Shown in pieces: positions 10,147 to 61,400 of a stretch of 64,000 nucleotides of DNA. A program made the translations under genes and the position numbers. Under the pieces are notes generated by a model that had not been told where the DNA came from, searched no databases, and saw only the letters and a list, made by a program, of their open reading frames with translations. Positions within the stretch are counted from its first letter, which is position 1; every line of letters starts with the position of its first letter. This stretch comes from Cloeon dipterum (lineage: Eukaryota > Arthropoda > Insecta > Ephemeroptera > Baetidae), in the NCBI RefSeq assembly GCF_949628265.1, contig NC_088790.1, forward strand, positions 12,652,545 through 12,716,544, given 5' to 3'.

Positions 10147-11603
10147 TCAGTGCTTCCAGCCGCCGTAGGGGAGGTGGTTCAGGGCTGAGGCAGCCTGCTG
10201 AGCGGCGATGCTGTTGGCGATGTCGTGCGTGGCCGCGATATTATGATACCTGAAAGCGAACGGACCGTTAAGAGCCACCGACAAAAGTCGCACTTGGCGA
10301 AGAGAGTAGAGAGACAGGAAAGTGACAGTGAACTTTTCGCCCTGGGCAAAAACCCAAACAAAGGGAAGCGGCTATATTGCGTCGTATTGCGTTAAGGAGT
10401 GTGTGATTAGTGATTATGAGCGAATTCAGCTCTTCTCAATTGTAAGCTAGCTTTTGAGCAGGGCGTCTGTGAGTTTAAAGTGTAAAAGTGTGTTGTGACT
10501 TACGCGGAGACCTGTCCAGCAAGGGCACCCAGAAGTTGAGCCTGTTCATGGTGCTTGGCATGTTTACTTACGATTAGACTCCTGATAAAAGTGACAATGG
10601 AGATGGCGATCGCAATCAAGGAGCCAATCGCGGCCTTCTTAGCCAGCAGACCCATGCCGATGTACGAGATCACCACCAGGGTGGCCACCTTCAGGATAAA
10701 TCCAACAATCACGGGCAACAGACTCTTGATGATCTTCTTGATGGCACGACCTGCTTTGCCAAAATGTTATCAAAAAGTGCTAACAATTAAAATTGTAGAA
10801 TTTTTTGTTTATTTGAGCCAAAGGCAGAATAAAAACAGGGTTGAATGAGGTTAATTTTGAGGGAAGGTAAGTTTTTATAATAAATAAATTAAATAAATAA
10901 GTTTTTTTAAAACTTATGTTTTTTCTGTAGTAATTTGAATTATCTCCTTTTTCATGGGATGCTTTACTCTGCGTAGGTTGATTTTTCCAGCTTTCGTTTG
11001 CCTTTGATCACACAATTTTAAACATACCTTGTCCATTGGTCAGAGCCTTGACGGTGTCGTACATTCTGCCAGCGACAGTGTCCACCTGCACGGACAGCCT
11101 TCTCTCGGAAGCAGCCTCCTGAACCTTGTCGGCGACATACTGCTGCAAGATCTCTTGCCTTTGCTCCAAGTCACCCTTCTCCTGGCTCAGCACAGCTTCA
11201 GCGGCCACGTCCTCAGCCTTGCGGGCACCGGTAGGTTTCACAGGTCGCACCAATTCGATGCCCTGGCTCAGGACGATGGTCTCTTCAGCCACCAAATCAC
11301 GAACATGTCTGTTTCAAAAGACAATCAATGAATTACCTCGTAATGGAATTATATAGCAAAAAACCTAGCAGGTTTATTTAAAAATATAAAATCTTTAAGC
11401 TAAATGTGTCTGATAGGACTGATAAAAGAATCTTTAAATTTGCCAAATTGAATTTTTGAGAATAATTGAAATCAAAATTGTTCCTACCTGTACGCAGTGC
11501 TCTGGAGGCAGGCGGCCGGGGACTTTGCATGGAGGCAGTCCTGAATGTCGGAGGCGGCCGCAGAGGCAGCAATCAGCAGCACCACGAATGACCACGAGTT
11601 CAT
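10147..11603 (-). CDS. Osiris family protein (DUF1676), 248 aa
   Basis: Four exons at 11603-11488, 11308-11028, 10750-10504 and 10249-10147 join in frame through GT-AG introns into 248 codons plus TGA. Residues 1-18 are a signal peptide. Cys23 and Cys32 form the family's short two-cysteine segment. Residues 55-130 are charged and helical. From Gly133-Arg134 a basic stretch (AIKKIIK) leads into two hydrophobic segments at about 142-168 and 171-192, the DUF1676 core. The C-terminus (215-248) has an AAQQAASALNH helix in the place of the usual AQxLAY motif and ends GGWKH. Osiris proteins are insect-specific, enter the secretory/endosomal system and act in cuticle-forming epithelia; their molecular action is poorly known. 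The family call is firm, but the individual Osiris number cannot be assigned. Confidence 0.9.
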
Positions 11604-13361: not shown

Positions 13362-15059
13362 TCACGCCGTCGCCTGGGCCTGGCCGTTGTAGGCGAGGTC
13401 ATGGGCCGCCAGGTCGAGCGCCCTGCGGTGGTGGTAGTCGCCGTGGTGTCCGTGCACCTGCACCACCTCGTGTCCGCCGTCGTCGCCCTTGCTGAGCAGC
13501 TTCTTCAGGCCGACGATGGCTGAGAGCAGGAAGGCCAGCGAGCTGACGGTCAGCGCCTTCATAGCCAGAAGTCCCAGGGCGCCGAGGGCCATCGCCTTCA
13601 TCATGCCGGCCATCATCATCGCGAGCATCATGGCACCGCCGTCCTTCTTCTTGCCGCCGCCGAAGCCGCCCTTACGAGCTGTTAAAAATAAATGGGATTT
13701 AATAGAATAAACAAGTATTTAAAACCAATAAATCTTGAGCTGTCCAGAAATTTTAATTTGAGTATAGAACACCATGTAATCAATATGGAAAATTGAGGGT
13801 TATTTTTCGACTTTTAGAACCAATTTGTAGTTTTTATTAATTTTTGAGGTTGAACTGAAAGAGTTTTAAGGCAGCAAGCGCTGAACCTTAGAATTAAAAT
13901 TAGACTTTGCAGTGGTTTGGTATAGTTTTTAACTCAAAAATGTATTTGCTTTGTAAATTTAGATTCATAGTGAAAGGAAAAATTTAGAAATAAGTTTAAG
14001 GTGGCTTTCAGGAACAAAGCTCTTGGGAACTTCTTAAGTTGGTTTCCATTTTATATTTTTATAATTCATTTAAATGTTCATTTTTAAGTTTTTCAATGGT
14101 GCCTTGATTCTTTATAGTTCATAACTAATTTTTAAAGAAATTCTTTCTTATGACAGGTAATTCAAACAAAACACCATAATGTTGCTAGGATGAAAAATAA
14201 TGAGCCAAGAGAGCTTTGATGATCTTGAACTCAACATTCAAGAGACAAATATAGTGAAGATCATGTTTATCTACGTTCGTTACTTTTTACTTTGGCTATT
14301 TTGATATCAAATATAATTTAACCTTTAGATCTAATCTGAGTACATCTCTTACAAGTAATTTCATATCGATTATGAAAAGTGGAAAGAGTATAGTTATAAC
14401 ATTGCAACTGAAAAAGTACTCAGTATATTTAAATCTTTTTTTATTTTTTACTTGTCGATTATAAATAAAAATACTTTTTATAACAAACTGTTATATTTAA
14501 TTAAACAAAATAAATTAAAAAATATAAATTATATATTTTTTAATAAATTAAAAAATATATATTATGTTTTTTAATTTATTAAAAAATTGTATGTAACTAT
14601 AATGAATTAATTATTTATACTAAAAAGTACTTCTGTTACTTTAGTAAATTTCTAGTTTTTAGTTATTAAAAATTAAAAAAAAATATGAAAAAACGTTATC
14701 AAACCTTCAGAGATATCCTTGATGGCTCCATCAACAACGTCCTGCAGCCTGAGACGCACCTCGTATCCAGAGGCGAACTTCCTGACTGTGTGCAAGAGGG
14801 ACGAGGAGAGGTCCCTGGCGTTGTCCATGCCCTCGAGGGGCTCCTCGATTTTCTGTGCCTCGACCTTGACGAGCTCGACGCCGTCCCAGAGTCGGCGGAC
14901 GAGCGGCAGGGCTTCGTCGGCCTCGTTGGACAGTTCGGAGACTACGTTGCGGGCGACGCATCCGACCGACTCAGAGCCCGGCGGACACACCTCGGCGGGC
15001 AAACCGGCGACGAGCCCCAGCAGGGCGACGAACAGGAGGATGCTACGAGATGATTGCAT
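13362..15059 (-). CDS. Osiris family protein (DUF1676), 223 aa, Met-rich core
   Basis: Two exons at 15059-14705 and 13678-13362 join in phase 1 to give 223 residues. Residues 1-19 form a signal peptide (SILLFVALLGLVAG). Cys25 and Cys34 are the paired cysteines. After Ala119-Arg120 comes a Gly/Lys stretch (KGGFGGGKKKDGG) typical of the family, then a hydrophobic segment with clustered methionines (MMLAMMMAGMMKAMALG, about 135-151) running on to about residue 180. The C-terminal region is His-rich (GHHGDYHH) and carries AHDLAYNG at 210-217, a clear form of the conserved Osiris AQxLAY motif. A TATA box and an initiator (TCAGTC, start near 15074) lie just upstream, giving a 5' UTR of only about 15 bases. 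The single 1-kb intron carries a strong AT-rich palindrome. Confidence 0.92.
14535..14587. repeat. Perfect AT-only palindrome in an Osiris intron
   Basis: Arms of 21 bases at 14535-14555 and 14567-14587 are exact reverse complements separated by 11 bases, inside a wider AT-only stretch at about 14500-14590. It would form a long hairpin in the intron of the 223-aa Osiris gene. Slippage in low-complexity DNA could produce it. Confidence 0.7.
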
Positions 15060-18257: not shown

Positions 18258-20404
18258 TTAGGGCTTGCGGGGAGCGTAGGCGCGGTAGGGTTGCTGGTCG
18301 GCGCGGGCGTAGCCGGTGGAGGCGGCGGCCGCGGCGCCGCTGTAGCTGGTGCCTGCCGAGAAGGTGTCGTGGTGGTCGAGCACGTGCGGGTGCGACACGA
18401 CCTCGTAGGTCACGGCGTGCGGTTGCGACAGGTGGCGGATGCCGAGCAGCACGGCGGCGGCCAAAGCAAGCTTGGACACAACCACGGCCTTGAACACCAG
18501 GATGGCCAGAGCGATGAACTTGAGGACGGCGAAGATGCTGATCTTGGTGATGGCGGCGGCGCCCAAGGCGTACAGGGTCTTGAACTTGTGCAGACGTCCT
18601 AAAACACGTGAGATAGCGGTTGAAAATTTAATTGTTATACAACAATTTATAGAATAGAGCTAATTACACCACACCTGCTTTAATACCCTGTCGAATTTAA
18701 GCAACTGTTTATTTTTAATTAAAAACGATATTTTTTAGGAGCAAAAAATCCTTGCAATTTTTTGTTCCGGACAATATTTTTGCTTGCTAATAACTGGTTC
18801 AAATTCAAAAGATTATTTTGCTTGTTCGGTCGAGATTGAGCATAAAAATAGGACAAAAATTATTTTAACAATGAAGATAAAAAATATGATATTTAAGTAA
18901 ATTAAAAATCCAATTTTTAAAAATGGTTGGATTCCAACTGTCAGGAGCTCTTCCGGTGGTTCTAATGCAACAATTAATTCATTTGTTAGCTCAAAAATGT
19001 GACAATCATTCACTTTAGGGGGCCTTTCCAAGGAAGGTAGACACCATGATTAATCCTTTCAATGAGATAATATACACACGATATTTGCAATTGAGTTGTG
19101 TTCAAGCCTATACATAGAAAGATTTTAAGACATTAATCAGGAACCTACATATTTAGATGGAGCGAAAAATCTTTCAAGATTTTACAGCCAGTATTGAAAA
19201 TTTTAAAACAAACGTGTTAAAAGAATAGTATGGATTTTTTGTTTATAATATTCTCTGCACAAGTTATATTGAATAATTTACAAACTGCTCTTATTTTTTC
19301 ACTTCATTGAGATATTTACTTTCCTATTTAGCACCTTAAATTTTATCTTAATACCGGTATAGCCTTTATTACATACATTTCTAAGCGGGAAAATTAGTGT
19401 TTTAGCACGATTTTGAAGCCTTTAACGACATCAATTTAAATTTATAACTAGTAATGAGTTAAGTCCTAATTGTATATTTTATTTTATAATGATGAAGTTT
19501 TGTCACTTCGAGGAAAATGTCCGGAATTTCAATTATGCTCAGAAAAAACCTTGATAGAATTAATTAATCAACAGTAATCTAGGCATTGTAAAGTACCAGT
19601 TGAAAATTCTTTTCACAGGTTTTATCTCAAATTTTATTCACTTGACTATGAAATTAAGGTTCAACCCCACCTATAAAAATCTGCCCTGTGTTGAGTGAAT
19701 CTTTAGGGAAAACATTAAAAACGATTTCCTTGAGAATCTACACTGTCACTGCGTAAACACAGTTTTTAAAAAGCCCAGTGACTAAAAAAAACAGACGCAT
19801 TCTGATTAAAAAGACATTTTGCACGGTTAATTTTGGAGAATACTGAAAATTAAAATAATAATTTCTGCTGTGTGTTATGGTTGGAAATTAAAACAGAATG
19901 GAATGTTACCAGTTTCGCTAGAGCGGGCAGTTTCAGCCAGCTTGAAATTGATGCTGGAGGCGTCCTTGTCGGTGGAGACGACGACGTCGGTGTCGGGGGC
20001 GACGGTCCAGTGCAGCTCACGCGACTTGATGAAATTCTTAACCTTGCTGGCCATCAGGACGATGCCGTCCTCGGTGCCGACCTCGCGGGGGCTGGTCAGC
20101 TCGAGCACCTCGGTGACCGACTCCGAGTTGGGGGTGACGACGATGTCGTCAGCGACCCTGATGGATGACTTCTTCATCAACTTCTGGAGGTAAGCGAAGG
20201 CCTGCAAATTCCGCAATTACGGAAAATCGAGGGTGGAAAACGGATTGAACTAACCTTGAGTTGGAGGCAGGCGGTGGCTGCCTTTTGGTGGGCGCAGGCG
20301 TTGTTCAATTTTGCCAGGACCTCGGTTTCGTAGTCCGACTGGGGGGCGGCCAGGGCCGCTGCGGCCACCAACACCACGACGACACACGTGCTCACTGCTC
20401 TCAT
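18258..20404 (-). CDS. Osiris family protein (DUF1676), 260 aa
   Basis: Three exons at 20404-20255, 20201-19910 and 18598-18258 give 260 residues. The first intron is only 53 bases long and phase 0; the second is 1.3 kb and phase 1. Residues 1-20 are a signal peptide (VVVVLVAAAALAA). Cys37 and Cys46 are the paired cysteines. Residues 51-147 are a mixed charged domain. Gly148-Arg149 begins the DUF1676 half, with a long hydrophobic segment at about 158-200. This is followed by VTYEVVSHPH at 210-219, a tyrosine/histidine motif seen in several Osiris members, and a tail rich in Ala, Ser and Tyr with paired tyrosines (PYRAY). A TATA box lies 36 bases upstream of the ATG. I cannot assign a specific Osiris number. 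Confidence 0.92.
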
Positions 20405-30752: not shown

Positions 30753-33700
30753 TTACTGGTACTGCGGGTAGCCAGAGTAGGCGAACTGGTGCGAGTCTCT
30801 GTGGTCATCGGGGTCGCGGAAGGCGACGGGGGCGGCGTTCACGGCGGAGGCGGCCACCTGAAGGTTGTTGGTGTCGCGGCCGTAGAAGGGGCCGCTGCCG
30901 CCTCCGGAGCCGTAGTAGGGGTAGTGAGGGCCGGAGCTCTGCGGCTGGTTGTAGTAGCTGCTGTGGCCGAAGTTGTTGTAAGGGCTGTGCAGATTCGGCT
31001 TGCACAGCTTGTAGAAGCCGATCAGACCGGGAACGACCAGCGCCAGCAGGCCAAGGATTTTCTTGAAAGATGCCAGGCCCAGGATGAAGGGCAGGAAGAG
31101 CAGCAGCTTCAGCTTGAACAGCTTCAGGATGATCAGCAGGGGGATGAACAGCTTCTTCAGCTTGGTGCGTGCTGCAAAATCGAATTATTGATTAGATTTT
31201 ACTGTCTAAATATAGCAAAAGAAGAATGTATTTAACTGATTTGGTCGGAAAAAGATTAAATTTGAAAAAAACTTATTTACTACGTAACTAAGTTATTATC
31301 GTGAAAATGTTCCAAAGGCTATACCATCGCTAATGAGAGGCTTGGAAGGTATTAAAGCCAATTTTAGGACCACTTGAGAGGAATCTAATGCACTATAATT
31401 AGCGTTGTGCTAACCAAGTAGGCTAAACAAAAAATAATTAATATCCTAAAAGCAAATATCACTGTGGCAGAGGTGATTGCCGGTAACTGATCATAACAAA
31501 ACACAAATTTGAGTGAGCAAAAATCGCTGAACAATTAATGTAAAATTAAAATTCAACTATTTTTCGAAAGTTACTAGCAATTGCTGTTGATACAGCGTTT
31601 TGCTTTGTAGTGAAATAAAGAATTTATTTAAAGCACTAGGCGCTCAACACTAAAATTATTACAGTTTCAAGTTTTGCACAGTTTTGAAGCTTCTCTATCC
31701 TATTTGTGATTAAATGTATTTACTATTCTAGAAAGTGATGTTATAAATTAAGCTCACTTTTTTTCTTTGAGCGCAGGAAATTAAATCAATGTGCACTCTA
31801 CACATGCCTTATTGTATTTGTTGCACTGTCTTTCATATTGTATGTAACTCTATTAAGCTCTATTTTCTCGAATATTTAATATAAAACGTTTATATTGTTT
31901 TCTAGACTAGATATTGCATTTCTGGTTAATTCTGCATCGCTGCTTCTAGTACGTATATGATTCAATCTGCGGTGAAAAATATTGATTATGTGTATGAGCG
32001 TTTGCTTTGTGAACCCGAGATAAACAGCGGCGGCGCTGGAGGCATCGTGATGGAAATTGGTGGCCGCAATCGAAACTCGGCACACTTGAGCGCAACAAAA
32101 GCCGTAATTGAGCGTCTTACTTTCGCGGTCATTGTCGGGGCCGGCCAGCAAAGCCGGCATGGATGCACTCACGTACGCAATGGCTGCACCCACGTGCGAT
32201 GTAATCCGTCGAATGTGGCACACGCTCGTTCAATGGCACGCCGCACAAGTGTAAATTTTGCAAAATCGCAACCGACCAGACGGAAAAAATATAGCTAATT
32301 TTATCTGGCCAGTGATTTTGCCCCCAGACACATAAGTCTGCGGTGGCGGTTTGTGCCCCCTCTGACAGCAATTAGGCTCTTTCCTAGCTAAATCAATCAA
32401 ATCATCAATTTCCTGCGATTTCCAATCAGCATTCCGGTGGCGAGGGGGAGAAAGCGTCTCTGATGATGATGATTTACGCGCTCGCACTCGCATTTTAATC
32501 AGACGCGTCGTTTCGCACTCTGCTCTGATGAGTCGAGGCGAAATCAACAAAACGAGAGAGACTGCCAATCGATATGTGCGGCTGACAAGTTTAGTGTATC
32601 AGAGGCTTCACGTGGCAGAAGAGGAAACGCAGCCAGAACCGATAATAAATTATAAAGTCAGGCAACCCGCGCCACACGAGGGATGAAAGTGTTGCATAAG
32701 CCAAATCTGTGGCAGGGGCCGGGTTAAAATTTAAAATCCCACAGACAAGCTTGGCACGTTTTTTAGGACAGACTTACGAACAATATCACTAAAAACGTGG
32801 AAGTTGCTGAAATGATTGCATTTTTTCAAGAAAGACAAAAATGGAGTAAATTACGTTAAATTGGCAAACTCTCCTTCTATTTTTTGCAATTCTAATTGTG
32901 TAGGGATACATATTAAGATAATTTTTGTTATGTAATAGCTGCTATCTAGCATTTGCATATTTTATGTAAAAAATAAATATATCTTTAAAAATTGTTTTGG
33001 TGGTTCTAAAAATTTGCTCTGAGATTAAATATTAACTATCTGCTGTTCAGAAGTATCTTAGGCTAAAATTTTCTTCTACCTTACACGTTAACTTAACTTT
33101 TAAAAAAAAAACTTTGGCAAACCCTACTGCCCTGGCTAGGATCCTAACAAAATACTCACAGAAAGAGTTTTCAGTCTTGTCCTCAATGAGGTCGATCTCG
33201 GTTGCGATCTCGTCGACGAATCTGGGTGCAAATCGACCCTGCTCCTGTCCCAGCAGCTCCTGGGGCACGTTGACTTCGAAGGCGGTCGAGCGGATGAAGT
33301 CCTCGGCCTTGCGCATCATGAATTTGGTGAACTGGTCCCATTCGGACTCTTCCGATCTGGGGGTTGAGGAGAATTCGTACTGCTTTCCTACTCTCTGCTT
33401 CCAACCTGGAAAATAAGAAGAAGTGAGAATGGTACTGATATTGCTAGAATGTAAATTTTGATGATTTTTAAACACATTTTAGGTTATTTTTTTCTTGAAA
33501 GGAAAGTGGCTCAAATGAAATTTGCTGTGCCGAAAAAGATGCACGTGCACCGTAAAGGAGCAAAGAAAGTTTATAAATATTATGATGAATGATCAACATT
33601 TTTTAACCTCTTTGGTATCTAGCACAATGGCTTTACTGGTCAGCGTGCCATTTTAAGGGGTTGCTGAATTTCTCTGAAGCTTGTGATTTTTTTATATATT

Positions 33701-43657: not shown

Positions 43658-45051
43658 TCATGCTGAGGCCGGCGCGGAGCTATCGGCTCTCTTATCTTTT
43701 TCCTTTTCATCGGCGAGCTGCTTGGCCAGGCGTCTGGCCTGCACCAGTTTGTTGATTTCGTGGTAGGTTTTCACCATGGGTGGACTGGCGGCGCCGAAGA
43801 GCGTTGACTGTTCCGACTTGGCGCCGTCCAGCTGATAATGCGACTGGTCTTCAGGCGTGTCTTCCGTCGAGTCGCAGTCAGGGTAGAGGGCCGAGCAGTC
43901 GGAGCCCTCCTGGCCGTCCTTGGCCGCCTTCATGTACGCGAAGAACTGCGTGCTGTCTTCGCCTCCAGCAACCGGCTTTTGCAGTTCACTCAGGTCTCTG
44001 GGAAAGGCAAAGTCTGTTAATTTTCGTCCTCGTGGTTAGCCCTCTAAGAAATTAACTTTGTTCCGAAAACTCCAACTGTGAGCTTTAATAATGGTGATGA
44101 AAATCTTGTCCTATTACTTAACGCAATGAATTCTACAGATTTTTAAGGTGCGTAAATTGGTCCCAGGTTCAGACGGACTTAATAATATATTTGATGCCAT
44201 ATTCAGTATTATCAATTATTGATTTCAATAGCTTAAAAATTAATTACCTTGGAAAGTATGTTCGGCTGTGGGGGACAAAAAATTTAAAAGTCACCTCTGT
44301 CAAATTTGGGCGTGTTTTTGTTAAATTGAAAAATCCATTTTGATAATTGAAACACTCTCTGACAGATTAAAATGGATTTCATTATTTTAAAAAAGAAAAT
44401 TTATATATTTTCTCTATTCTGCGTGGAATTATTTCAAGAATAATATAGAACAGTCAACCAATTGTTACCGCAGGTGACTCAACCTTGCAGCTAACACTGC
44501 AGCGTTTAAGTTTTGTTTTATATTCTAGGTACGGCTGATGAGACATGAGAGGCAGAAATGGCGTGCCCAGTACGAAAAGGTGTGAGATAATGTTTCTCTT
44601 CATAATTAATCCAATGCCGCCCATCCTAAACTTAAAAGCTCCGGGTGGAGTAGTATTATTTTTGGTTTTTCCTTTCTTTTAATTAATATAAGGGCAAAAA
44701 GAAGTAACAAAAAAATGTATTTCATATTCATTATTTGCTCTGTGGTTTTTCATTACTGACACACTATTGACTGCACCTAGTGACCCAATCTGCCGAATCG
44801 TAAATACGGCGTTAATGAGGTGCAAACAAATGGACAGGCGACAAACTCGACCTCGACCGAGAGACGCGTGTTAATGAACAAGGGGCACGCCTTTTTAGCG
44901 GTACCTCTTGCGTGTGCTGCCTTTGTTTGTGCCGCACTGATAAGAACGCAAAATTATACTCGGGTGTACTTGGTCATTTGATCCATTTAAATACAGATTA
45001 ATCTATTTTAATTAGCAAATTTAAAATTAATCGTAAAAAATGTTTTGCAAA

Positions 45052-45115
<64 letters not shown>

Positions 45116-48100
45116 TTGTTTAGAGCATGATATTGAAGCTAAAATTTTGAATTGTTCGATAAAATTGCAGGAAATCCTTTGTTTTTATATTTCCGCCTCT
45201 GTCCCAGAGCCTTTCATAGAAACCAACATTAAATCAGAATTATGTATTTATATATTAATTAGAGACTCTAACACATTAATTAGAGTGTGAGGATTGTTGC
45301 GAGCTGCTCATTTCGAGCATATTCTGTAACACAAGACACAAGCTCATTATTTGCAACTGATTCCTGACTGAATTCGCGATAGCTCCTTCACTATAAAAAA
45401 CGCCAACGCGGATGCAATTTCCAGGAGTCGTTAAAATCGACACCGTTAAAGCTGATGAGACGCTCATTTTCTGCAATGAAATGGGGAGACGACAACAAAG
45501 TTAGTGTGTCGTTCTCTAGTCTAATTGCCGCGCGCAGCAGTTACAATTCCGGCCGTGCGAAGTGAGATGCGTGGATTAAACAGCATAATAAGAGGCGGAA
45601 GCTAATCTTCGTCGAGAGATGAATGGATGGACGCGCGCATCTCATTCACGAATAAAATACCGTGGCGGCTATCAAAATAATGGGCCGGCCGCCGCACACT
45701 TGACCCACTAACAGGCGTGGAGAAACAAAAGCAGCGATGAGCAGGATGCTTTCCGCTTTTGTTTCAGCCCATGAACGAGTATGATTGCGTGAACACATCT
45801 AAGTATTCCTCTCTTTACTGCAGAAAAGAAAATAAACGGAGCGACATCGCCACTACGCAGAGAAAAAATTAGTTGGTCAAGTACATCTCACCTAAAAATT
45901 CTGAAATCAAGTTTGCATTCTTAAAATACACTTGATTACAGGTACAAAAATCTTCAATTTGATAATTTTTAAAAATATATTCAATTAAAAATGTTTTCAT
46001 TAAAAACAGTTATTTTCTAGAATTTAGTCAATTAGCTACTTTAAGTTTCTATTTCTTATATCAATACTTAATCTGCATGAATTTATACCCGAAGCACCCA
46101 TTTTAAAAAGTTTTTTGACTGCTTAATAATGACAACGCGTTTTAAATCCATTGTTTTAACACTTACAAAGTGTCAGGTACTTTAACATTTAGTTTTGTCT
46201 GATAGTTATAGTTATAATCAAGTGTCTTTTAAGAAATTACTTTTTTCCGAATTTCCATCTCCATATTTAACTAATACTCCATCAAAATCTGAATTATTTC
46301 CTCGCAACCACAGTTTTTCAATGGATATCACATTGATCTGAACCTCATGCTCAATATCCAAGTAGAATAATATATTAAATATTTTGATTTTAAAATGTTT
46401 CTTATTTTACAAGAAATTAAACTTCGATTTGGTCTGATCACTAGATCAATTTCCAAATGAGCTAAAACTATCTAAATTTAATGATTTTTTTTACTTTATT
46501 GAAAGTCTGAGTTTGTAAAAAAAATAATAGTAAGAATATATGGATAGGCCAATAATTTAATTCACCTGCTGAGTTGCGCCGAGACGAGGTTACTGTAGGG
46601 GGCGTATTTCCCAGGCTGCTTATACATATTGCACACGAGTCGCTTTGTGCACTCCTTGGACTTTTTCTCGTAGCCGAGCTGCTTGAAGACCACGTCCAGC
46701 CTGGACACGATGGGGCTGTAGTAGGGGTCGAACCCGTTCATGATCAGCGAGTGGCCGGGCACCTGCTGGAAATGGTTGAACTTGGACGGCATCAGCGGCC
46801 GCTTAAATGGCCACTGAGTTAGGGGACGCTTTCCGTACAAACTGCCGTAGCCGGCGGGCACGTACGACGGCGAGCCCAGAAGGCTGTCTCGTCTGTTCTG
46901 TGGGTAGTTGGTGAATGCGGCCACGTTGCTCGTTGCCGACGTGTCGTAGTTTGGGTCGAAATTGTCCTGCAACCATTATAGAGCCGATTAGTTTAATAGC
47001 ACCCCATGACATTAAATTGGGATTATATTGAATATTTTACATAAGCCCCTTAACTTCAAATAGAGGCTGAGAAACTGAAGACAGTGAAGACCGTCGCCTA
47101 TTTTTCCTCAGAGAAAGAGATAAAATTTAATGAGGACATTCGGGACATTCTAAAACGACTGAAATCGAAAAACGTCATAATATATTGTGTACTAAAATTT
47201 TCTGGTTAAGACATAAAAAACACCAAACTTTGGTCCATAACACGCATACATTAAAAATTTTAATCAAAACTTCTATTTGGAAATTTATAAATTTCCAATA
47301 AGTTGAAATTTTGTAAGTTTGAACCCCTAATTCAATCATATTTAATTAGGTTACAATTTAAAAATTAAATTGACTTGTCCATTTTTTACGTGACAAGTCT
47401 GTCCTTTTAAATTTCTTTTAAATTGGCACGAGAAAGAAAAATATGTTCCTAGCCTTTATATTTCAATTAAAAAATTATTATTCTATCTCGTTTCTTATTA
47501 CAAAATACCTTAAAGTCGAACTCGTCTTCTCCGCCGCTGTGTCCGTGTCCGGCAGAGGCCTGGAAGATGCTGGCACCGCTCTTGCCCAGGAATTTACCGA
47601 TGGAGGTCAGAATGGTGGGCAGGAAGATGGCCAGCAGAATTGACTTGACAACCTGCGCGCCGATAAAGAACGGCAGCAGCAGCTTTTTCAGGCCGAATGC
47701 TAGGAAACCCAGGCCGAATCCAGTCAGGAAAGTGTTGGCGCTCGCGGTTCGGGCTGAAATTGAATGCGCCACGTAAGTTGATACAGTTCAAACAGGAGCA
47801 AATGGAAAGGGAAAGTCAAAAGTAGACAGGCAAGAGTAGTTTGGTGAAATCGGAATTTCGAAAAAGTTCGATTGTTCCAGCTACCAAAGCCAGAAGTTGG
47901 TTGATTTGGAAATTGAAAATTTTGGGCAAAGCTGCGTTTGTAAAGTGGCTTGTTTAAAGGTTATTCTGAGAAATACGCAAAATATGGCATCATCATTAAT
48001 TGTATAACGAACTTAATTGGTTCTATATATGGCATCATTTTGATCAAAACGGCTCAAAGAACAACTCTTTTTAAGACATCTGTGCTAACGTCAGAGGAAT

Positions 48101-50622
48101 TTTGAAGGTATTTGACATTTAACGCTCAATAATTATTTTATGAAGCAACTTCAGCAATACTAAACATTTGCATGTATTTCTCCAGGAAACTTCTTATACA
48201 GTTGCTTAGAACCAAACTTAATTAATAATGACTATGTCGTTTTCTTCCACATTTAACATTAGTAACAAACTCACAAACAATCTCTGAATCAGAAATTCAG
48301 GTGCGTTATGAACGGAAGATGGATATTTCGATCCGAATCGGCTTCCTGGCGAATTTGATGGGCGCGTGCACACACGCATACTCATAATATATTTTTGTCA
48401 GTCCGTTAGATGACCGAGAGAGAAAAGGCTGCAGGCTCTGGCATTAAAGCTATGGTGGCCAATCGCGGAAAAAACCGAAAACCGCATTAGTGGTATCGAA
48501 TTGGTAAATTGGGCGTGGAAATCGACTTTTCTTATCACCGTGCTACTTTGCTGCGGCCACATCAAGAACAAATAAATTCAACCGATTGACAAAAAGTTGA
48601 AAATAAAATCAATATTGCTGGTAAGGTCTGGAGTTTTTTTTCGAATCGGTCTATTGAAAATCCATAATATTGGAAATTGGGATATTGAAAAAGTGACAGA
48701 TGCATAATTTGCAGATAATATATATCTGACTCCAGAGTAGGTTTAAAAAGCGTGAGTCTGATGTTGAGTGGCCCTATAGACGAATAATTCTCAGGCCACA
48801 AAGAACTTGGCCCTCAGACAAAAAATAAAAATAATTACTTATTGTGGCTCAAAGACTGAGTTCAGCCAAGGGGAACCGAACACTCCCACGTGATCCACCA
48901 TACGCTGGATAATTTTAATCCTCCACTCCTTTCACCTTTCGCATTCTTTCACTCCGCTTCTCTCCGAATAATATTACGTTAACACACTTTTGGTCAAACA
49001 AACGACTGATCTGAGCCAGCGAGCGAGCGTCTCTTTTTCAAGTACTGTATTGCCACTCGAGTGGTCAATAAGCTAAATTTGCTTAAGCTGGAGCACAGGT
49101 CGGTTGGAAATAATCGCCACCGGCTATTCACTTTGTACGCATACACACACAGTGCTCTCGGGATACCCCACATTTGCATAATCGAGCCCTTGTAATGATG
49201 ATAAGGTATACGTGATAAAAGAGGGTCTGAATGGGCACGAAAGTATCTAAATTCATAGAGCGGAAAATTCACGCAAATGAGGCAGAAACGAGCAGGACAG
49301 TGAAAGAATCATTCGAATTTTTTTAACACAAAGGCAAAAGCGATGTTCTTTCATTAGACTCGCCCGCCGACCTTTTTATCTCTGTGCAAAATTGGGACGG
49401 ACTGAAAAGCATTAGGAGCAAATTAATCTCCGAGCTACAACAATTTGATTTTTTTGTTCTTTTGTCCGGCTGCTACGATTATCTCCTTTGATGACCCAAA
49501 TTCCTGCGCACATTTTTGCTCACTGCCCTGGGTCGGCCCTTTGTGAGTGCATCACGCAGTGGCTGCTGCTTTATTGATTTTGGCTAACGATTCTGTTCGC
49601 AACCACCATTTAACTATGCATGTGCTGCCATACGGAAACGGAGGGCCATTTAAATATCAATTTTTCATCCACTATCAACTTTCCGGACCGGTATATTAAG
49701 TGAGTTAAGAGAAAGAAATTTGACAAACAGTGAAAAAGACATGAAACCAGGTCATAGTGTAAATACGGAGAAGAGAGCTTTAAATAGCCAACACAAAGAA
49801 GTTGTACACATCCAACGTTAGAGGAAACAAGAAGAGAGGAAAGTAGTCGCGCGGGTTTGAAGTGTGCGACAAAGACTAAAACGCACACCAAACTGGCAAA
49901 GACAGAGTATTCACATGCGCTCGACTTACCTATTCGAGCCAAAAATTCTATCGGATTTGAAAACGTTCCTGCAAATACGAGAAGAAAAATACTTCAAGAA
50001 AAGACAGAAGATTTACACTCGCGCAGTCAGTGCAAAGTGGCGGAAATATTAAGACTACACTAATAATTGCAACAAATATTTGTGCGGGAGACTACACAAA
50101 GAAAGTTACAAAATGCATCAATACAGATACACCAAATCAAATTTTCGGGAAAAATCAAATGGGACCAATTAAGCGGTAAAAATTTATTTAAGGAATGAGA
50201 AATTTGGATTGATCAAAATGTTTCCTAAAATAATTTAAAAATGATGTTTTTCACCGCTTTATCAATTATTTTAAATGTAAAGACTTACGTGCACCGCTCT
50301 CAAGGTCGCTGAAGGAGATTACCAGCTCGTGGCCTTTCAGGTAGTCCCAGGTGCGGTCGACTAGGTACTGGTCAGGGTCTTCGAGGCTCCTGTTGCTTCC
50401 TTCGTGGAGGCCCTCCACCCTGTGCACTTGGTAGCCCGACACGTACTCAGTGATGGGCTTCTCGTCCTCCTCGACCAAACTCTTGAGGGCCTGTTCCTGC
50501 AGGCAGGACCAGTCCACCTTTTCGGCGCATTTCTCGTGCAGCTTAGCCAGCATCAGCTGGTCTACTTGGTCCGCCCTGACGACGGCCAACACCAGCAGGG
50601 TCAGAAGCACCAAAGGTCTCAT
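43658..50622 (-). CDS. Osiris (DUF1676) protein fused to a DM4/DM12-like Cys module, 439 aa
   Basis: Coding exons at 50622-50289, 47753-47509, 46966-46566 and 43997-43658 join in phases 1, 0 and 2 into 439 residues plus TGA. Residues 1-17 are a signal peptide, with Cys32 and Cys40 as the Osiris cysteine pair. Pro112-Arg113 starts a DUF1676-like hydrophobic segment (GFGLGFLAFGLKKLLLPFF, to about residue 168) and a His/Gly-rich end (GHGHSGG). The next exon does not begin with a start codon and joins in phase 0. It continues with an Asn/Pro/Tyr-rich linker and Cys299-x5-Cys305; the last exon adds Cys361-x6-Cys368 in DCSALYPDC. That spacing and context resemble the insect DM4/DM12 family (PF07841). 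The C-terminus is a charged helix (ARRLAKQLADEKEKDKR). The donor GTAAGT at 50288 was preferred to an internal GGTGCAC. Introns are long (about 2.5, 0.5 and 2.6 kb). Two separate genes remain possible if an unseen promoter exon exists before 46966. Confidence 0.75.
45056..45113. repeat. (AT)29 microsatellite
   Basis: An uninterrupted AT dinucleotide tract of 58 bases lies in the last intron of the Osiris fusion gene. Confidence 0.95.
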
Positions 50623-58408: not shown

Positions 58409-61400
58409 ATGGCGGTGGCGCCGAGTGCACCCATCCTCCTCTTCCTCCTGCTGGCGCTGCTCGTGGCCGCCGACGCCGCTGAAGCCGCCGCCGACGACGA
58501 CCTCGACCACGAGCACTATGACGAGGACGACTACGACGACGATGCAGACTACCCCGTGGTAGTGTTGGACGCTTTCATTCCTCGTGCACTTGACTAACGT
58601 GGATCTTTTCCATTACTCTTGTATCTGATTTCGTTTTGCTAGAAAAGCGGATATTTATTATCATAATTATTTTTCTTACAAGCACTCTTGAGTAGAGCTT
58701 GTCACGGCCATCAATTTAACTTTTTACATTTTTTTAAATATTATTTAAATATTTTGAATAATTGCCGGGGAAATATTGTAGGACTGTGCTGTAAACGAGG
58801 CAAAACAGCGCAGAGTTTATAATAGCACCTCCGACTATGATTTAGTTTTCCTCTAAATAACCATGTGCTTAAGATTTTGTTCCTTTTTATCATCTTTAAT
58901 AGATATTAGTTTGACCATCAACAACATCTAGTTATTTAATTTTTGAGGAGAAGCAACTTTTTTTATAGCTTCTTTCCCAGCCATTTTTTTTACAATTTGT
59001 TTATAAGAATATGCGTAAAATAGCCTAAATAACATTTTTTTTTTATACGGAGAAACTCAGGAAAAATTAAAATATAATAATTGCAATTGCCTGAATCTTT
59101 ATCAAGATGATGACTTCAAATGACCTAGACATTAAAAGATTTGTTGATTTTAATAATAAATTACAATTAACGTTTTTGAAATTAAATGAGCGGCAGAATA
59201 TTTTTTAAAGAGTTAAGTTGAAAATACATACGACTTGCAACAAACAAATAAATGCCACAGGTTAAAATATTGAAACAAAACTAAAAATCTATATTTAAAA
59301 TTACAAAAAAAAAGTTGAAACCCGATTAAAGTTGGGCAAATATCTGACTAAAGTGATAGCCTTGGAAAAATATCCTCAATTAGAGCAAATTCTGCGGTTT
59401 CCCACACATATTTTGCTAGTTTAGATGGTTTGCCAGTATTTTTATTTGTTGCTTTTTACTTAATCATTGATCGGAAGCTCAGAACCCGTCTAAATTTCAC
59501 AACCCTATTTTTCTATCAATGGTAGGAATAAAAATCTAATTTCCCAACGCATGCCTCGGGGTAGGATCTACCTCCTGCTGTTCCTGACACAACAACCGTA
59601 ACTTCTGTTGCTCCGACTGAGGGAGGAACTAGCCCAATTATTGCAACGTCAGAGAATCCCACTGTTATCTTCCAAGCTACAACCACAGAGGGCAACTTAA
59701 CCGACGAAGATGAAAAAGCTCTGCACAGGTGAGACGTATATGTGATTTTTTAATTAAATTAGATTTTATTTAATTTAATTTAAACTCAGGCAAAATATTG
59801 TGCAAAGCTCCTTTTACGTGCTACATGAATGTGGGAAAGTTAATCAAGTATAGTTTACTCAAAGCAAGTAAATTTAATCAAGGACATGCTGCAGATTGCT
59901 CAGGTTTCCAGTCGGAAGGAATAAATAACAAAGCAATTTTCCTCCGTGGGCCCTCGAGAGTGATACATAGGCAAATCCCTATTCACCATTATGTACGGAA
60001 GCAAGGCAGCAAATTTTAATTGCCTGCGATGAGTTTTCACGTCCCTTGTGAAAATCGAGCGTCTGCGTTCGACGCCCTTTGACCTTTGGCCCGACGCATG
60101 GTCCATTTTATTTAGCCGCACCCGGCATATAGCGGTCAGCGGGGGCTCCTCGTCTGCCTGCTTTCGGTCCAAAAAAAAGTTGTGAATTATTCATTGTGAA
60201 TAAGAGTGACGATGGTCCATTCACGAGCACTTACCGCTCCCAAAAGTGATGCACGTCCAATTTGCTGCTCTTCATATGTGCAAAAGGTGGCAAAAGTTGA
60301 TCTACTTTGTCATCCCTCGTCCTTTTGAAGAGTGAGAAAAGTCGAGAGGCGTTTGCTTTGCCAATCTGACAGATTTATCTTTTCGCTGATCGACGGGGAC
60401 GGAAAAGAGGAGTGAAGGGAGTTTCCGCTCGCAAAATTGCGCACTGCGTAACATTTTTATATAGTTTGAAATATTTGTTGTGTAGCAACCAAGCAGAAAG
60501 CACCTGACAGAGTACAGCCTAAAAGAAAATAAATTATTGCCGTGCTGCGCGCTTCAATGGGCTGAAAAATAATGTTTCTGATAATATGAATATTTTAAGA
60601 ACACGCACTTGGAAATCACGAGGCAAATATTTTTCCAATGCAAAGTTGCTGTATACGATGGATGCAAAAATATTGTTTGGTTTTTAATTGAAAGAATTAT
60701 ATTTTCGTTGAGTTCGTTTTTTACTAATATCGATAGCATATTAACGATGATTTTTCCAAAAATGTCAACGTTTTTATGAATTAGTCGTATTTTTTTATTT
60801 AATAGTGATATCTACACAGAAGAAAATTTCACACATAATAAACAGTTTCTAATGTTTCTCACAGCTAAACTAATTACTAAAACATTACCTGGTATCTCCT
60901 ATCAAATTTCCATCCCACTATTGGTTTCAGCAAATTAGAGCTGGAGATGTGGAGATGCTGTACAAATAAGGAAAGTAATTTAAATATCTCGGGCTTAGTA
61001 ATGAGAATGGCGGGTTGTGTGCTCAAACTTTTGTTTAATGAGTTTTTTACGTCGTAAATCGCACTTTTTGCTGCACTCTTTCTTTTGTTATGAAGCAGCA
61101 GCGTGTTACATTTCATTAAAAGCTCGACCTCTCACGAATTTAATGAGTTACAAATGACCTGGTTTCAGAAGATCTTATTACAGCACCCACGCAGGAAATT
61201 GTTTTTATCTGAAAAGCTTATATTTTTCCAGTGGGTTAAAATGAATGTCAGCTTTTAGCTATGAGCAGGGGATTGAATTTGTAAACAATTTCGACGAAAG
61301 GCGTAAGTATTGGCGTAAGTATTGTTTTCAAGGGTCAGTGCGGTCAGTCTATCAAGTTGCTATGAGAGAGCTGAATCAATTACAAACTTTCACTCCGTAT

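Follow-up and report, generated by a model that had tools for sequence, protein, structure and literature searches.

In the mayfly Cloeon dipterum, a gene on the minus strand of the 64,000-nucleotide stretch analysed here (the window) is predicted to encode a protein that combines an N-terminal Osiris (DUF1676) part with a C-terminal DM4/12 module of four cysteines. We consider the locus to be one ordinary insect gene. Synteny with a receptor gene resembling NPFR1 makes it most likely the orthologue of Osiris 24 (probability roughly 0.87). The single-gene layout had been proposed in a first-pass annotation, and it gains support from predicted splice joins that hold and from another gene built alike in this genome. 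The suggestion made there that the fusion would be a new architecture does not survive, since Duf1676 plus DM4_12 has already been published for NlOsiris17 (680 aa) and NlOsiris24 (478 aa) of Nilaparvata lugens (PMC12825958, 2025) and the mayfly genome itself has a second such gene; the Osiris plus DM4/12 architecture is thus already known. Like the window protein, the two planthopper proteins carry DUF1676 and a C-terminal DM4_12 with four conserved cysteines (PMC12825958), although they belong to another insect, differ in length from the 439 residues found here and are likened to it by their published domain description. Within the accessible portions of the literature on Osiris and DM4/12, the two domains meet in one protein only in PMC12825958, and PMC9764631 gives them as separate families. 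Because the architecture is already published, the value of the present case is modest: it adds another insect genome with an Osiris plus DM4/12 gene pair, and its intron evidence ties the module to stand-alone DM4/12 genes by homology. The first-pass annotation also suggested that the fusion might couple an Osiris trafficking domain to a cysteine-rich cargo; since two paralogues share the fusion and it recurs in a different order of insects, the module would more probably be a built-in domain than a chance cargo.

Gene Structure and a Second Fused Gene

The predicted gene consists of four exons on the minus strand, joined in phases 1, 0 and 2, which together give 1,320 nt including the stop, or 439 aa (table 1). 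The exon coordinates and phases stated in the first-pass annotation were verified on the sequence, as was the exact closure of its 439-residue model. All splice sites are of the GT/AG type, with donors CAC|GTAAGT, AAG|GTATTT and CAG|GTGAAT and acceptors TTTCAG, TTGCAG and CCCAG. The exons stand out by their GC content, which over 200-base blocks is 0.535-0.605 in the five that are mostly exon versus 0.175 to 0.50 in exon-free ones. Between exons 1 and 2 lies a candidate micro-exon of 39 nt (49968-49930, minus strand) with strong sites (acceptor tatttgcag|, donor |GTAAGT), whose inclusion would keep the frame and add 13 residues; the accepted four-exon model may therefore omit an in-frame piece.

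Table 1.—Predicted Features of the Window Gene and of the Second Fused Gene
Feature	Position	Strand	Description
Exon 1	50289..50622	-	334 nt; start codon at 50622; ends in phase 1
Exon 1, N-terminus	50569-50622 (residues 1-18)	-	Signal-peptide-like
Exon 1, two-Cys region	50503-50529 (Cys 32 and Cys 40)	-	C-x7-C; DUF1676 begins in exon 1
Exon 2	47509..47753	-	245 nt; remainder of the DUF1676 match and hydrophobic segment; ends in phase 0
Hydrophobic segment	47581-47732 (about residues 120-169)	-	In exon 2, from hydropathy
Exon 3	46566..46966	-	401 nt; ends in phase 2
Exon 3, parts		-	Linker (residues 194 to about 270), then first half of the DM4/12 module with C-x5-C
DM4_12 match, start	46702	-	In exon 3 (Pfam match)
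Exon 4	43658..43997	-	340 nt; second half of the DM4/12 module with C-x6-C
DM4_12 match, end	43874	-	In exon 4; beyond it an acidic, lysine-rich tail up to the stop
Second fused gene	C5:2271046-2278541		Predicted, 483 aa; 10.4 Mb from the window gene
Second fused gene, exons (n=5)	C5:2271046-2271188, 2271315-2271679, 2274846-2275200, 2275870-2276319, 2278403-2278541		
Counterpart of exon 3	C5:2275870-2276319		
Counterpart of exon 4	C5:2278403-2278541		Last exon of the second fused gene

The second fused gene was reached with exon 3 as query, which aligns to C5:2276138-2276317 (49% identity, E 6e-11), 1.1 kb from a DUF1676 match. It shares with the window gene the signal peptide, the two-Cys region, DUF1676, the hydrophobic segment, the module and the intron within the module; unlike the window gene, it has five exons and a histidine-rich stretch past the hydrophobic segment, and its stop follows shortly after the last Cys. 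Its protein scores 61.8 bits against DUF1676 and 16.5 bits against DM4_12, the latter below the cut-off of 22.

Osiris Affinity and Identity

Run on the protein, the profile check that had been proposed against PF07898 and PF07841 placed both domains above the Pfam cut-offs. The Osiris match (PF07898) is marginal, at 25.7 bits against a cut-off of 24.3 over residues 31-161, but the gene lies in an Osiris row, where four further DUF1676 matches share its strand within 13500-34083 of the window. Three Osiris traits were found: a hydrophobic, signal-peptide-like N-terminus (MRPLVLLTLLVLAVVRA), judged from sequence and hydropathy only and not with a dedicated predictor; a two-Cys region; and a hydrophobic, putative transmembrane segment, where 19-residue hydropathy reaches 2.1. 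No part of the 439-residue protein fits a strict AQxLAY-like pattern, and the second fused gene lacks it likewise; a looser form of the pattern matches QFFAY, which falls within the DM4/12 part. As the signature domains are reported in most Osiris members only (PMC3284338), the missing motif does not bar membership, and in Drosophila Osiris 24 (CG15589) not all of them are conserved either (PMC3284338).

The window has four other hydrophobic exons of Osiris type, to which exon 2 aligns at 20-30% identity. They lie on the minus strand within 10503-34341 (30756-31184, 18261-18659, 13365-13718 and 10503-10766), and two of the four frames, 30756-31184 and 13365-13718, carry an AQxLAY-like motif (SHQFAY and AHDLAY). 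AlphaFold2, run on exon 2 with the other four, predicted one long helix over residues 3-64 (mean pLDDT 64.1, pTM 0.27). Genome-wide, 31 DUF1676 matches were listed with PF07898 and 12 DM4/12 loci with PF07841; the window gene is missing from the first list and both fused genes from the second, so that the two lists are lower bounds.

The case for Osiris 24 comes from the neighbourhood. A rhodopsin-type receptor gene (C5:12728643-12731010; 7tm_1, 91.7 and 77.6 bits) lies on the same strand, 25 kb past the 5′ end of the window gene, and among solved structures neuropeptide Y receptor type 2 matches it best. The receptor fits NPFR1, a subtype we infer from its family and from that structural-database match. 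Outside Hymenoptera, every insect surveyed in PMC3284338 has NPFR1 between Osi1 and Osi24, and in Drosophila, too, Osiris 24 closes the Osiris row on one side next to NPFR1 (PMC3284338). With an NPFR1-like gene at the end of the Osiris row here too, Osiris 24 is the most likely identity of the window gene, and the second fused gene is perhaps Osiris 17. The fused layout is common to both genes, as it would be if the window gene were instead the Osiris 17 orthologue, or a lineage-specific Osiris plus DM4/12 copy, and the gene at C5:2.27 Mb were Osiris 24. We consider that assignment unlikely, given that it is the window gene that sits at the end of the row facing the receptor gene, as published for Osi24 and NPFR1. 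Length points the same way, 439 aa being closer to NlOsiris24 than to NlOsiris17, yet this is a weak argument because the second gene, with 483 aa, is also near 478.

One Gene or Two

The DUF1676 exons and the DM4/12 exons could in principle belong to two neighbouring genes misjoined by the model, namely a two-exon Osiris gene that stops just past 47509 and an independent DM4/12 gene whose first exon has escaped notice. The sequence offers some material for such a split: of the 13 ATG frames in intron 2 (542 nt) four provide a phase-0 GT, one of these, from 47339, encoding 54 mildly hydrophobic residues, and exon 3 contains three internal in-frame ATGs (46792, 46741 and 46627). Conversely, exon 3 has no in-frame ATG upstream, as the first-pass annotation had noted for this phase-0 exon: its own frame is shut by a TAA at 46978-46976, three codons before the acceptor, with no ATG between the two. 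Moreover, AATAAA is absent from intron 2 (ATTAAA occurs four times), the succession of Osiris hydrophobic exon, DM4/12 exon and last exon is repeated on one strand in the second gene, and the planthopper has a fused product (PMC12825958). The second gene and the planthopper report outweigh the candidate first exons sought in intron 2, and we hold the separate-gene reading to be very improbable.

Homology of the DM4/12 Module

The single fused gene ends in a module that matches PF07841 at 28.6 bits (cut-off 22) over residues 282-368, covering profile positions 7-86 of 86. The C-x5-C and C-x6-C spacings reported earlier for the C-terminal half correspond to Cys 299/305 and Cys 361/368, so all four conserved cysteines are present. 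In both fused genes a phase-2 intron interrupts the module 22 residues past the second of the C-x5-C cysteines. At all 12 other DM4/12 loci listed for the genome a phase-2 donor, chosen as the GT of that phase at the end of the open frame, falls at +21 to +27, and at exactly +22 in seven of them. A candidate last exon with C-x6-C was seen at nine of these loci and with C-x7-C at one, while at two neither was found within the 1.5 kb read. A profile built from the 12 loci gave 21.0 bits to the window protein, which ranked first of 2,002 sequences, and 14.5 to the second fused protein, against 8.6 for the best of 2,000 shuffles. Judged by sequence, the shared place and phase of the intron and the profile tests, the C-terminal module is homologous to DM4/12. 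That its cysteines merely resemble DM4/12 through convergent spacing is hardly credible against this agreement over nearly the whole Pfam profile, in the genome-internal profile and in intron structure, despite the low identity to the other DM4/12 loci and a tree that groups the fused modules apart from them (99/100).

Stand-alone DM4/12 proteins (PF07841) thus resemble the window gene in C-x5-C and in the phase-2 intron about 22 residues on, and differ in their separate tree group and in lacking a DUF1676 match alongside: none of the 12 listed loci lies beside any of the 31 listed PF07898 matches. Ten of the 12 form a tandem group on both strands over about 20 kb (C2:33905000-33932000).

A single origin of both fused modules is likely from the sequences. 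The two modules share 42% identity over 130 residues (E 1e-28). Resemblance between the Osiris parts is weak (29% identity over 48 residues and 33% over 64), and the intron between the Osiris and DM4/12 parts is in phase 0 in the window gene versus phase 2 in the second gene. The tree, built from 15 short rows of 92 columns (the two fused modules, a DM4/12-like exon at 66367-66749 and the 12 other loci) and with only one starred inner branch, sets the fused modules and that exon apart from the 12 loci with a support of 99/100. Just 6% of 200 bootstrap trees place the two fused modules by themselves on one side of a branch, since the exon 66367-66749, with its long branch, falls between them. 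This exon, whose position is counted from the window start and lies just past the window, is on the plus strand, opposite to and between the window gene and the NPY-receptor-like gene. It encodes CRRRLLC with a phase-2 donor at +21, has no Pfam match and reaches a weak 14.6 bits against a profile of the two fused modules. A signal-peptide-like exon at 58409-58597 of the window (plus strand) could be its start.

Function and Membrane Topology

The protein would comprise a signal peptide, the two-Cys and DUF1676 part, a hydrophobic membrane segment and the DM4/12 module in place of the usual AQxLAY tail. It would enter the ER of cuticle-secreting epidermal and bristle cells, where the hydrophobic segment would anchor it in the membrane. 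It would contribute to cuticle deposition through secretory or ER-to-plasma-membrane traffic, and its DM4/12 module, stabilised by disulphides, would face the lumen or the cell exterior. This mechanism as a whole is offered tentatively, at somewhat under even odds. The proposed function draws on published work. Five knock-outs are lethal in Drosophila, those of Osi24 and Osi17 included; the shaft cells of both mechanosensory bristles and olfactory sensilla express Osi24, and wing expansion depends on Osi17 (PMC11151929); Osi24 marks butterfly scale precursors (PMC12204629). NlOsiris17 and NlOsiris24 are called closely related, and knock-down of either leads to a similar hatching failure (PMC12825958). 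Counting against our explanation, Osi24 mutants are described as having no obvious olfactory-organ phenotype in Drosophila (PMC11151929). Osi23/Gox is ER-resident and linked to ER-to-plasma-membrane traffic, and is described with a lumenal and a cytoplasmic side (PMC9331688, PMC12755865).

The DM4/12 cysteines suggest a lumenal tail in the window protein, as a disulphide-type module placed after the hydrophobic segment fits a cytoplasmic tail poorly. Their conservation in a secreted family suggests disulphides; if these form, the C-terminus of Osiris 24 and 17 would be lumenal or outside the cell, and the hydrophobic segment would then have to make two passes through the membrane or none, in contrast to Osiris 23/Gox with its described lumenal and cytoplasmic parts. 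We advance as a doubtful, more far-reaching proposal from the sequences that the module might report this topology for both proteins, and that one old joining event with a DM4/12 gene might have replaced the AQxLAY tail of both. The topology question is testable, and the Osiris family underlies insect cuticle nanostructures. Among springtail and crustacean ESTs, matches were reported for no Osiris genes other than 17 and 24, and these were short and weak (PMC3284338); the DM4/12 tail may explain them, in which case they may be DM4/12 rather than Osiris matches.
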